Shown piece after piece: positions 54,649 to 58,395 of a stretch of DNA of 64,000 nucleotides. Under the pieces are notes generated by a model. It was not told where the DNA came from. It worked only from the letters and a program-made list of their open reading frames with translations, and did no database searches. The position numbers and the translations under genes are program-made. Numbering within the stretch: position 1 is the stretch's first letter; each line of letters starts with the position of its first letter. Source of the stretch: Microbacterium sp. STN6 (GTDB lineage Bacteria; Actinomycetota; Actinomycetes; Actinomycetales; Microbacteriaceae). The stretch covers positions 496,001-560,000 of the forward strand of contig NZ_JAPMIT010000002.1 in assembly GCF_026410545.1 (NCBI RefSeq). Reading direction: 5' to 3'.

Positions 54649-56694
54649 TCAGTCGGCGAGGCCGCGGCGCTTCAACAGAGGCTCGATCACCGCGTCGCGG
54701 CCGCGGAAGTCGCGGTACGCCTCCAGCGGGTCTTTCGAGCCACCGACGCCGAGCAGGCGGGTGCGGAACCGCTCGCCGTTCTCGCGCGTGAGCCCGCCGT
54801 TCTCGCGGAACCACTCGACCGTGTCGGCATCCAGCACCTCGCTCCAGATGTAGGAGTAGTAGCCGGCGTCGTAGCCGCCGGCGAAGGTGTGCTGGAAGTA
54901 CGTGCTCGAGTACCGCGGCGGCACGGCGGGGTTGTCGAGTCCGACCGCCGCGAGCGCGCTCGACTCGAATGCGTCGACGTCGGTCACGGTGTCGTCGGCC
55001 GTGATGGAGTGCCACGCCTGGTCAAGCAGCGCCGCGCCCAGGTACTCGCTCGTCTTGAAGCCCTCATTGAACGCCTCCGACGCACGCAGCTTGTCGACCA
55101 GTTCCTGCGGCATCGGCTCGTTCGTGCGGTAGTGACGGGCGTAGTTCGCGAGAACGTCGGGCCACAGCATCCACATCTCATTCACCTGGCTCGGGAACTC
55201 CACGAAGTCGCGAAACACGTTCGTTCCCGCGAATTTCGGGTAGGTGACGTGGGCGAAGAGCCCGTGCAGCGCGTGGCCGAACTCGTGGAAGAGCGTGTTG
55301 ACCTCGTCGTACGTGAGCAGGGTCGGCTCGCCCGCCGCCGGCTTGGGCACGTTGTGGTTGTTCACGACGACGGTGGGGGAGTCGAGCAGCGTCGACTGCG
55401 AGGTCAGCGGGTTCATCCATGCCCCACCGCGCTTCGAGTCGCGCGTGTACAGGTCGTACAGGAACAGGCCGAGGGCGCTGCCGTCTTCGTTGAAGACCTC
55501 GAAAACCCGCACGTCGGGGTGGTAGGCCGTCAGGTCGTGTCGCTCGGCGAAGGTCAGGCCATAGAGCTTGCTGGCGGCGAAGAAGACCCCGTCGTGCAAC
55601 ACGCGCTCGGCCTCGAAGTACGGCCGCATGGCGGCGGTGTCGACATCGTAGGCCGCCTTTCGCGCAGCCTCGGTGTAGTAGGCCCAGTCCCATGCCTGCA
55701 CCTCGGAGTCGTGCCCGGCCGACTCTGCCTGGTGCTGCAGCTCCTGCTGTTCGGCGCGGGCGTTGCGCGCGGCGGGCACAGCAAGACGGCCGAGCATGTC
55801 GGCGACCGCCTGCGGATTCTTTGCGGTCTCATCCGCCGTCACGTACTCGGCGTGGGTGGCGAAGCCGAGCAGCCGCGCCCGTTCGGCGCGAAGCCGGGTG
55901 ATCTCGAGCACCACCTGCCGGTTGTCGTGCTCATTGCCGCGAGCCGAGCGTGAGCGTGAGGCGGCCATTACGCGCTGCCTGAGATCGCGGTTCGTGAGAG
56001 AAGCGAGAAGCGGATGCCCCGTCGGCAGCACCAGCGTGATGAGGTACTTGCCGTCGAGCCCTCGACCGCGGGCGGCCTCGGCAGCCGCCGAGACCTGCCC
56101 GTCATCGAGGCCGTCGAGCTGCGAAACGTCGTCCACGACGACCGCGAGATCGTTGGTGTCGGCGAGCAGGTTCTTGTCGAAGCGGGTCGTCAGGCTCGAC
56201 AGCGCCTCGTTGATCTCGCGCAGTCGTCGGGCACCCTCGTCGTCTAGCCCGGCGCCAGCGAGGGTGAACTCCGTGTGGTACCTCTCGAGCAAATATCGCG
56301 ATTCAGGGTCGAGGTCGAGTGCGTCGCGCTGGTCGTACACGCTTTCGATGCGCGCGTAGAGGTCGCGGTTCAGCGTGATGGCATCCTGGTGCGCGGCCAG
56401 CCGCGGCGCGATCTTCTCTTCGAGTGCATTGGTGAAGTCGGTCGAATCGGCCGAGCTCTTGTTGAAGAACACCTCCGCCACGCGCAGTAACGTCTGCCCG
56501 CTGCGTTCCAGCGGCAACAGCGTGTTCTCGAACGAGGCCGGCTCGGAGTTCGCAGTGATTGCGTCGATCTCGGCAAGCTGCTCGGCGAAGCCACGCTCGA
56601 AGGCGGGCTCATAGTGCTCGTCGGCGATCTCGGCGAACGGGGGCAGCTGGTACGGGAGCGGGCTCGGAGTGAAGAAGGGGTTCGTTTCGGCCAT
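54649..56694 (-). CDS. M3-family oligopeptidase/dipeptidyl carboxypeptidase
   Basis: The 681-residue zinc metallopeptidase resembles Dcp/oligopeptidase A. The zinc motif is HEFGH at 470-474 (FHEFGHALHGLF), with the downstream glutamate region. No signal peptide, so it would process peptides in the cytoplasm. It starts at the ATG 56694. It is divergent from a winged-helix regulator gene and shares a region with phased TTGCAAA elements that probably control one or both. Confidence 0.93.
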   Translation of the reverse strand: MAETNPFFTPSPLPYQLPPFAEIADEHYEPAFERGFAEQLAEIDAITANSEPASFENTLLPLERSGQTLLRVAEVFFNKSSADSTDFTNALEEKIAPRLAAHQDAITLNRDLYARIESVYDQRDALDLDPESRYLLERYHTEFTLAGAGLDDEGARRLREINEALSSLTTRFDKNLLADTNDLAVVVDDVSQLDGLDDGQVSAAAEAARGRGLDGKYLITLVLPTGHPLLASLTNRDLRQRVMAASRSRSARGNEHDNRQVVLEITRLRAERARLLGFATHAEYVTADETAKNPQAVADMLGRLAVPAARNARAEQQELQHQAESAGHDSEVQAWDWAYYTEAARKAAYDVDTAAMRPYFEAERVLHDGVFFAASKLYGLTFAERHDLTAYHPDVRVFEVFNEDGSALGLFLYDLYTRDSKRGGAWMNPLTSQSTLLDSPTVVVNNHNVPKPAAGEPTLLTYDEVNTLFHEFGHALHGLFAHVTYPKFAGTNVFRDFVEFPSQVNEMWMLWPDVLANYARHYRTNEPMPQELVDKLRASEAFNEGFKTSEYLGAALLDQAWHSITADDTVTDVDAFESSALAAVGLDNPAVPPRYSSTYFQHTFAGGYDAGYYSYIWSEVLDADTVEWFRENGGLTRENGERFRTRLLGVGGSKDPLEAYRDFRGRDAVIEPLLKRRGLAD

Positions 56695-56722
56695 GCCTCA
56701 AGCCTAGGGCGGCATGCGCGCG

Positions 56723-56785
56723 GTGCAAACACCCCGTTGCAAACCAGCTGTTGCAAAGAACCAGTTGCAAAGGATCCTTTGCAAC
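56723..56785. promoter_or_regulatory. Phased TTGCAAA operator array with 22-bp perfect palindrome
   Basis: The core TTGCAAA or TGCAAAC occurs as direct copies: GTGCAAAC at 56723, GTTGCAAAC at 56736, GTTGCAAAG at 56750 and GTTGCAAAG at 56764, spaced 13, 14 and 14 bases apart. The last copy forms the left half of a perfect 22-base palindrome, GTTGCAAAGGATCCTTTGCAAC at 56764-56785 (positions given as the two halves GTTGCAAAGGA/TCCTTTGCAAC). It lies between the divergent M3 peptidase and ArsR-like regulator genes. Confidence 0.8.
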
Positions 56786-56800
56786 TGTAACATTGGTGTT

Positions 56801-57400
56801 ATGGAAGAGGAGTACACGCCCAAGGCGGATCGCAACATCGACCTTGAGTCGCTCAAGGCGCTGGCGCATCCGCTTCGCGTGCAGATCGTCGACGTTCTCG
56901 CGCAGTATGGGCCGCACACCGCCAGTGGTCTGGCGGCCCGACTGGGGGAGTCGAGCGGCGCCACCAGCTACCACCTGCGCCAGCTGGCCAAGCACGACTT
57001 CGTGCGCGAAATCGTCGGCCGCGGCACATCCCGCGAGCGCTGGTGGGAACGGACGCCGGGCGGCCTCAACCTCGATGCCCGCACGCTCGCCGATACCGAG
57101 GCGGCCCGTGCTGCCGCCACCATGGTGGTGCGGCAGTGGCAGCAGACACGCGAGCAGCAGCTGAACGCGTTTCTCGACCGGGGCCTCGATGTGCTGCCTG
57201 GCGCATGGATGGATGCGTCGGTCATCTCGACCTCGAACGTGCGGGTGACGGCCGAGCAGCTGCACGAATTCACCGAGCAATGGCAGCGCCATGTTGATGC
57301 ATTCGCCGAGAAGCATCGCGGGCAGAACCCCACCGGGTCGCGGCCCGTGCAGATCCAGTTCAACGCCTTTCCCCTCATCGACGGCCAGGAGACCCCCTGA
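56801..57400 (+). CDS. ArsR-like winged-helix transcriptional regulator
   Basis: The 199-residue protein has an N-terminal winged helix (LKALAHPLRVQIVDVLAQYGPHTASGLAARLG near 17-48; SGATSYHLRQLAKHDFV near 51-67) and a helical C-terminal part (QQTREQQLNAFLDRGLDVLPGAW). The ATG at 56801 is 15 bases after the operator array, so autoregulation is likely; earlier in-frame starts would run through the array. No metal-binding cysteine cluster is seen. It may also control the divergent M3 peptidase and the small gene downstream, whose start overlaps its stop. Confidence 0.88.
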   Translation: MEEEYTPKADRNIDLESLKALAHPLRVQIVDVLAQYGPHTASGLAARLGESSGATSYHLRQLAKHDFVREIVGRGTSRERWWERTPGGLNLDARTLADTEAARAAATMVVRQWQQTREQQLNAFLDRGLDVLPGAWMDASVISTSNVRVTAEQLHEFTEQWQRHVDAFAEKHRGQNPTGSRPVQIQFNAFPLIDGQETP

Positions 57401-57624
57401 TGACGACAGTGACCATACGGATGACGGGCCGCCGCCGGCGCCCCAGCCCCTTCGAGGCCGCGGTGGCCCGCGTCGGCCTCGCCCTCGTACGCTGGGCCGG
57501 CCACAGGGCGGAGCGCCGCGCCGAGGCCGCGAACCGGCCGCGCCTCAGCGCGGCAGCGCGCTCCGCGGCGATAGACATGCAGCGTGAGAGGTCGCTACGC
57601 GCCTACGGATTCGGGCCGCGCTAA
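57400..57624 (+). CDS. Small basic hypothetical protein coupled to the regulator
   Basis: The 74-residue basic protein (RRRRPSPFEAAVARVGLALVRWAGHRAERRAEAANRP) overlaps the regulator stop codon (TGATG), so it is translationally coupled. It has an amphipathic or weakly hydrophobic helix at about 18-34. No family is recognised. In related genomes such short genes may precede a transporter, but none follows here. Confidence 0.6.
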   Translation: MTTVTIRMTGRRRRPSPFEAAVARVGLALVRWAGHRAERRAEAANRPRLSAAARSAAIDMQRERSLRAYGFGPR

Positions 57625-57671: not shown

Positions 57672-57944
57672 CTACTCGTCGTCCTCGTCGAAAGGGTCGG
57701 GCACACCGTCGGCCGGCTGAGTGATCGTCGCGCTGTCCTCGTGCGGGTTGTAGCGGATCACGGTTCCATCGTCGAGCTCGATGACGGGCTTGTTCTCCAG
57801 CCACGTCAGCGTCCAGCGCCAGTTCGCAGTCTGCGCGTCGACGGCCGCGAGCTCCTCCTCGGCGGCGTGCACGGCAAGCCGCACGACCTCCGGGAGGTTC
57901 GCGGGCGGCTCGTCGCCGACGGCCCATCTCGTGCCGAGCTGCAT
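57672..57944 (-). CDS. Small acidic hypothetical protein
   Basis: The 90-residue protein (ANWRWTLTWLENKPVIELDDGTVIRYNPHED) has a helix followed by a strand-rich region and an acidic tail. ATG at 57944 lies 4 bases after the GNAT stop, so it is probably co-transcribed with GNAT and valS. No function is known. Confidence 0.65.
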   Translation of the reverse strand: MQLGTRWAVGDEPPANLPEVVRLAVHAAEEELAAVDAQTANWRWTLTWLENKPVIELDDGTVIRYNPHEDSATITQPADGVPDPFDEDDE

Positions 57945-57948
57945 GGCG

Positions 57949-58395
57949 CTACAGCCTGATCTCGTAAGTGACCGCGGGTGAGCGCGTGCCCAGCGTCTCG
58001 TACAGCGACGCCGCCGGGTCGTTCTCGCCGCTCGAGGCCCACTGCACCACCCCGAAGCCCTTCTCGGCGGCCAGCCCACGCACCGCCTGAATCAGTGCAG
58101 TGCCCGCGCCCTGCTCGCGCGAGTCGGGCGCGACGTAGAGCTCGTCGATGAACATGCCGTGGTCGTTGGCGAGCGGCCGGGCGAATTCCCGGAAGTGCGC
58201 GAGGCCCACGAGGCGACCGTCGTCAGCGGCAGCGACGATGGCCTGCTCCTCATGCGATGCGTCACTGAGCCACGTCCACACGCGAAGGGCGCGGGTGTCA
58301 TCCAGGGGGGTGTCGAACGTCTCGGCGTAGCCCTCGTAGAGGCTGAGCCACGCGAAGAAGTCGCCCTCGGCGAGTGGTCTGATGGTGATCGACAT
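57949..58395 (-). CDS. GNAT-family N-acetyltransferase
   Basis: The 148-residue protein has the GNAT acetyl-CoA motif LYVAPDSREQGAGTALIQAV near 86-105 and the C-terminal GFGVVQWASSGENDPAASLYETLGTR block. It would acetylate an amine substrate that cannot be predicted. AGGAGG precedes the ATG at 58395. It lies 62 bases downstream of valS on the same strand. Confidence 0.9.
   Translation of the reverse strand: MSITIRPLAEGDFFAWLSLYEGYAETFDTPLDDTRALRVWTWLSDASHEEQAIVAAADDGRLVGLAHFREFARPLANDHGMFIDELYVAPDSREQGAGTALIQAVRGLAAEKGFGVVQWASSGENDPAASLYETLGTRSPAVTYEIRL

Follow-up and report, generated by a model that had tools for sequence, protein, structure and literature searches.

In the 64,000-nucleotide stretch of Microbacterium sp. 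STN6 DNA analysed here (the window), a gene for an M3 metallopeptidase (Dcp-like; 54649..56694, minus strand) and a gene for an HTH_20/ArsR-like regulator of 199 aa (56801..57400, plus strand) diverge from an intergenic region that contains an array of TTGCAA-type repeats. The region measures 106 bp (56695-56800), as stated in the initial annotation, in which the repeats were proposed to be bound cooperatively and to control both genes. It was asked which of the neighbouring genes the array serves and which protein reads it. The comparisons described below indicate that it is very probably the autoregulatory operator of the adjacent HTH_20 regulator and of a partner gene translationally coupled to it.

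Organization of the array

The array extends over 56723..56784 (plus strand) and comprises five TTGCAA-type cores, GTGCAA at 56723-56728 and TTGCAA at 56737-56742, 56751-56756, 56765-56770 and 56779-56784, at an exact spacing of 14 bp. The half-sites reported initially were real, but their number had been given as four and their spacing as 13–14 bases. The description of the array as helically phased had to be abandoned, because 14 bp corresponds to 1.33 turns of B-DNA and the cores are on different faces of the DNA: successive cores are rotated by approximately 120 degrees and the same face is regained after 42 bp (three steps).

The pattern TTGCAA-N8-TTGCAA-N8-TTGCAA gave two overlapping matches in the window and none in 100 dinucleotide shuffles. 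Single TTGCAA hexamers were not enriched in the window (5 observed versus 3.9 expected), and four of the five were located within the array. When the 3.1-Mb genome was searched with the two-core pattern allowing at most one mismatch, the array was the sole site besides one unrelated TTGGAA...TTGCAA.

The last two cores are part of a perfect palindrome, noted earlier with a length of 22 bp and found here to cover 26 bp (56762..56787; arms 56762-56774 and 56775-56787). It results from the flanks of the cores, which are of the TTGCAAAG type at the inner forward copies and of the CTTTGCAA type at the last copy, so that the element flips from forward to reverse at the junction. Relatives share this junction, which is presumed to be the primary dimer site. 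Upstream of the homologues the half-site is asymmetric, TTGCAAAGaa being repeated every 14 bp in one to five forward copies, after which there are usually one or two reversed ones. Where the forward element (T)TGCAAAGaa meets the reverse element ttCTTTGCA, the junction therefore reads TGCAAAGA-N2-TCTTTGCA.

Distribution of the array among relatives

A search for homologues of the regulator, which is encoded by a single-copy gene, yielded 51 loci, including representatives of Cryobacterium, Microcella, Agromyces, Brevibacterium, Oerskovia and Promicromonospora, and in nearly all of them the array was directly upstream of the regulator gene. An in-register array was present at 94 of 97 regulator loci. 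When 132 unique upstream regions were compared, each of the 143 pairs of successive exact TTGCAA cores was separated by a multiple of 14 bp (133 by 14, 9 by 28 and 1 by 42), and no TTGCAA core occurred in the first 260 bp of the 163 coding regions used as the comparison set. The search for the half-site in related genomes, suggested with the initial annotation, thus found the spaced sites conserved and always upstream of the regulator.

To approach the same question from DNA alone, 396 Micrococcales genomes were scanned with TTGCAAA-N7-TTGCAAA-N7-TTGCA and with a control pattern. The three-core pattern was matched in 36 of the 396 genomes and the control pattern in 0, and a regulator homologue adjoined the array at all 30 of the scan loci that were fetched. 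Array matches in the small genomes G006 and G015 and in G656 (L113) had no regulator nearby and were set aside as chance-like. In Promicromonospora and Myceligenerans the array is placed approximately 0.5 kb upstream of the regulator, and at the Promicromonospora loci examined a small ORF separates the two.

The remaining neighbours vary between lineages: an M3 peptidase and ValS in Microbacteriaceae; an M4 protease, tryptophan dioxygenase and LtrA in Brevibacterium; Lrp, an E1 dehydrogenase and PNPase in Agromyces; MarR, an MFS transporter and ClpP in Oerskovia and Promicromonospora, with a methyltransferase also seen in some lineage. The site accompanies the regulator gene in relatives whatever the other neighbours are. 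Among the loci compared, the array goes with the regulator and with no other neighbour.

At all examined Brevibacterium loci (L015-L024, L035, L052) the M4 protease is of the thermolysin type and is divergent from the regulator. A ClpP gene follows the regulator in L040-L050, L053 and L086-L088 (Promicromonospora, Oerskovia and relatives), with two in tandem in Oerskovia, and ClpP may represent another type of operon partner. The closeness of proteases (M3, M4 and ClpP) to the regulator in three lineages was considered as an explanation and rejected, since neither Agromyces (Lrp/PNPase) nor the outer MFS-coupled homologues conform to it. In G009 (L133/L158) the regulator gene is apparently frame-shifted and the array is kept; at L052 the regulator gene is apparently truncated and no in-register array was found.

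Relation of the array to the M3 peptidase gene

A shared divergent operator, through which the regulator would co-control the M3 peptidase and its own gene, is suggested by the position of the outermost core. The predicted leaderless promoter of the M3 gene has its −10 motif TAGGCT at 56701..56706 (minus strand), 6 nt before the ATG, and the core at 56723-56728 falls in the predicted −35 region, at a distance of 17 bp from TAGGCT when the hexamer is taken as TTTGCA. The 16-bp gap between core and −10 observed in the window recurs in L158 and L108, and many Microbacteriaceae have M3 as the gene divergent from the regulator. Across loci, however, the gap between the M3 −10 and the nearest core varies from 7 to 91 bp, and a leaderless-looking −10 of its own (TAGGCT and variants, approximately 6 nt before the AUG) is usual for the M3 gene with or without the array. 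At loci where the two genes are apart (L004-L007, L063/L150, L068/L159, G008, G021, G031, G040) the array is retained by the regulator and not by M3, the sequence upstream of M3 being masked in G031, and in Brevibacterium, Agromyces and Promicromonospora the array is present although M3 does not adjoin it.

Control of both genes from one operator is rather unlikely on this evidence, and co-control of the peptidase was rejected as a conserved function because the array neither follows M3 nor keeps a fixed spacing to its promoter. Since the outermost core overlaps the −35 predicted for the M3 gene, the peptidase may be repressed collaterally in this genome, as a feature that is not conserved. 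What stands of the cooperative control proposed initially is a conserved, cooperative-looking operator overlapping the regulator promoter; control of M3 is not general. The pairing of the two genes, described as unusual, is positional, other lineages pairing the regulator with an M4 protease, Lrp, MarR-MFS or a methyltransferase. The annotation is to be corrected: unless data support it, M3 should not be listed as a target of this regulator.

The predicted regulator promoter and the probable mode of control

The fourth core (56765..56770, plus strand), which is the left core of the palindrome, coincides with the predicted −35 hexamer TTGCAA of the regulator promoter and is separated by 17 bp from the predicted −10 TAACAT (56788..56793, plus strand). 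Both assignments draw on comparison with the homologues, in which the spacer between core and TANNNT was 17 bp in 73 of 80 core/−10 pairs. The −10-like TAACAT had been noticed previously as overlapping the right side of the array; it directly abuts the end of the palindrome. In the window a strict consensus promoter scan did not report the regulator promoter, TAACAT being weak, so the promoter call there rests on the relatives.

The regulator ATG is at 56801, 13 nt past the palindrome, and in the homologues the start codon is located 7–9, 21–23 or approximately 35 bp from the start of the last core, i.e. in the 14-bp register. Given the 17-bp spacer and a start codon in register with the cores, the predicted transcript start (approximately 56800) coincides with the AUG, as expected of a leaderless mRNA. 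The array is built into the predicted leaderless promoter and, in the sequences compared, is in register with both this promoter and the start codon. The array can be found by eye, and it predicts the start codon and the promoter of the regulator and identifies the target operon.

Because the array overlaps the −35 and −10 motifs and the AUG is at approximately +1, autorepression fits the arrangement, and we infer that the regulator operon is repressed rather than activated. A regulator dimer would bind the junction palindrome across the −35/−10 spacer, and more dimers would occupy the upstream 14-bp steps, each approximately 120 degrees further on, to form a nucleoprotein filament blocking RNA polymerase. 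Where reversed copies continue, dimers would reach over the −10 and the AUG. The operon would stay repressed until a ligand, probably the substrate of the exporter in the ancestral regulator-MFS operon, releases the regulator. In this genome the regulated operon would consist of the regulator and a 74-aa protein, with M3 at most co-repressed.

The opposite assumption, that the regulator activates from the array with the upstream cores as activator sites, takes account of the fact that most forward cores are upstream of the −35, where activators bind. It is nevertheless improbable: the strongest (palindromic) site spans the −35 and the spacer, and another core extends over the −10 and the start codon in many relatives, so that binding at these places would block the polymerase.

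Recognition helix and core sequence

At the class level, TTGCAAAG arrays were found upstream of most of the distant homologues fetched, including those of large-genome actinomycetes. In 40 divergent homologues without TTGCAA the periodicity peaked at 14 bp (z 17) and 28 bp (z 6.8). A 13-bp spacing was detected in three divergent homologues (L210, L223, L239); TGCAGAA- or TGCATAGG-like units at this spacing were seen in these and, by eye, also in L143 and L203.

The core sequence was compared with the recognition helix of the regulator. The helix ES[ST]G[AS]TSYHL was accompanied by TTGCAA in 93 of 107 cases, [VI]NSG[TA]ASYHL by GCGAAG in 5 of 5, EA[PV]SLVSYHL by TTGCGCAA in 4 of 4 and SVASCSFHL by TTAGCA in 2 of 2; these counts track clades, so that the cases are not independent of one another, and the core classes were defined once the data had been seen. 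In this set of homologues, when the recognition helix changes the core changes and the 14-bp period stays. As the core changes together with the helix, direct reading of the array by the regulator is supported; the covariation would be hard to explain otherwise, and we regard it as supporting and not as decisive. The matched helices and cores offer a starting point for deriving a DNA-recognition code and for designing orthogonal repressors.

The same covariation bears on the idea that a different trans-acting factor binds the array and that the adjacency of the regulator is incidental. No protein-DNA data were found for the family of the regulator in the sources searched, which leaves some room for such a factor, but the array occurs as one site per genome, always at the regulator, and its core sequence shifts with the regulator's own recognition helix, so this idea is very improbable. 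It is scarcely credible that the palindrome acts mainly as an RNA hairpin, a terminator or a dispersed repeat (REP/MITE): a stem resembling a terminator was predicted on the minus strand, but both flanking transcripts are predicted to be leaderless and would therefore exclude the palindrome, the element is single-copy in the genome, and the conserved feature is the 14-bp period and not a stem.

With the regulator as the reader of the array, a wider rule may be envisaged, for and against which we see the arguments as evenly balanced. The whole actinobacterial HTH_20 family would carry 14-bp arrays (13-bp in a few cases) fused to a leaderless promoter, with dimers spiralling in 120-degree steps, and the helix residues (approximately 50-55) and cores would constitute a specificity code: ESSGAT-TTGCAA, VNSGTA-GCGAAG, EAPSLV-TTGCGCAA and ESVASC-TTAGCA.

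The regulator and its coupled partner

The regulator scored above the Pfam gathering thresholds for PF12840 (HTH_20; E 2e-12, 47.2 bits versus 27) and for HTH_5 (arsR; 35.8 versus 22). The AlphaFold2 model (pLDDT 88.5) predicts an HTH at residues 15-64, a wing at 68-84 and a long helix at 100-131, that is, an N-terminal winged helix and a helix suited to dimerisation. Fold matches included 4g6q, 1uly, SqrR and CadC, the best ones being uncharacterised or ArsR-type regulators. No cysteine, and hence no ArsR/SmtB cysteine metal site of the alpha3 CxC type, is present in the 199-aa protein, and its score for NCBIfam HTH_metalloreg (43.8 bits) is under the cut-off of 55. Identity as a metalloregulator was rejected on these grounds, and metal sensing of the usual kind is unlikely. 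A link to anti-phage defence was also dismissed, since PADLOC matched the HTH domain only weakly, to Csa3/CasR.

The regulator gene overlaps a small ORF (57400..57624, plus strand) in a TGATG stop/start arrangement. The encoded 74-aa protein has no Pfam match and takes the position of the MFS exporter in the outer homologues, in which the regulator gene overlaps an MFS transporter gene (MFS_3/MFS_1) by 4 bp. In Microbacteriaceae, Brevibacterium and Oerskovia the coupled position is held by a protein of 60–160 aa, often with a GLALxxWGxRRA-like helix. The homologues of the 74-aa protein (60–160 aa) have in common a helix like GLALVRWGRRRA. In L064, L068, L099, L101, L108 and L109 (Microbacteriaceae) the regulator gene, the small ORF and an MFS gene are consecutive, and in the midpoint-rooted regulator tree the outer clades mostly have MFS partners and the clade of the window mostly has the small ORF. 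The simplest reading, the direction of which depends on the midpoint rooting, is that the small gene was inserted and the MFS gene was lost later. The co-transcribed partner would accordingly be ancestrally an MFS exporter and in this genome the 74-aa protein. Through the array, an anonymous class of actinobacterial regulators, many of them MFS-coupled, gains a readable operator.

In many Microbacteriaceae a conserved protein without a Pfam match (ORF135; 57672-58079, minus strand, in the window) is encoded between the regulator and valS, and its gene often adjoins a GNAT gene.

Comparison with known systems

The predicted system resembles the ArsR/SmtB metalloregulators in its winged-helix ArsR-type DNA-binding domain, in an inverted repeat with a 2-bp centre over the −35/−10 and in the (here predicted) autoregulation of a local operon that often includes a transporter. 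Operators of that family, e.g. of AzuR/nmtA, consist of one or two 12-2-12 inverted repeats (PMC8790569). The array does not conform to this plan: its arms are TGCAAAGA-N2-TCTTTGCA, and the junction palindrome is extended in tandem by up to five more half-sites at a strict 14-bp step. The 199-aa regulator also differs from the family in lacking cysteines, in contrast to the cysteine metal sites of ArsR/SmtB proteins.

The MFS-coupled actinobacterial regulators of the HTH_20 family (PF12840), such as 4g6q (Kfla_6221), share the domain family with the regulator, and 4g6q was its best fold match. The outer homologues keep the coupled MFS gene, whereas the window has the 74-aa protein instead. No description of an operator or function was found for these regulators, and neither a 14-bp array nor the TTGCAAAG element was found described in the open-licence literature; an earlier report elsewhere is possible.

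Iterated half-sites are known from operators of the Fur and DtxR types, on which overlapping dimers are able to spread around the helix. Those proteins have an unrelated fold and differ in metal sensing, and the step is approximately 6 bp for Fur versus 14 bp here. As the 14-bp step is strict and is not one helical turn, the way in which winged-helix dimers would read it is a clear structural question. Among the known local autorepressors, the feature that appears to be new in the system described here is its iterated operator.
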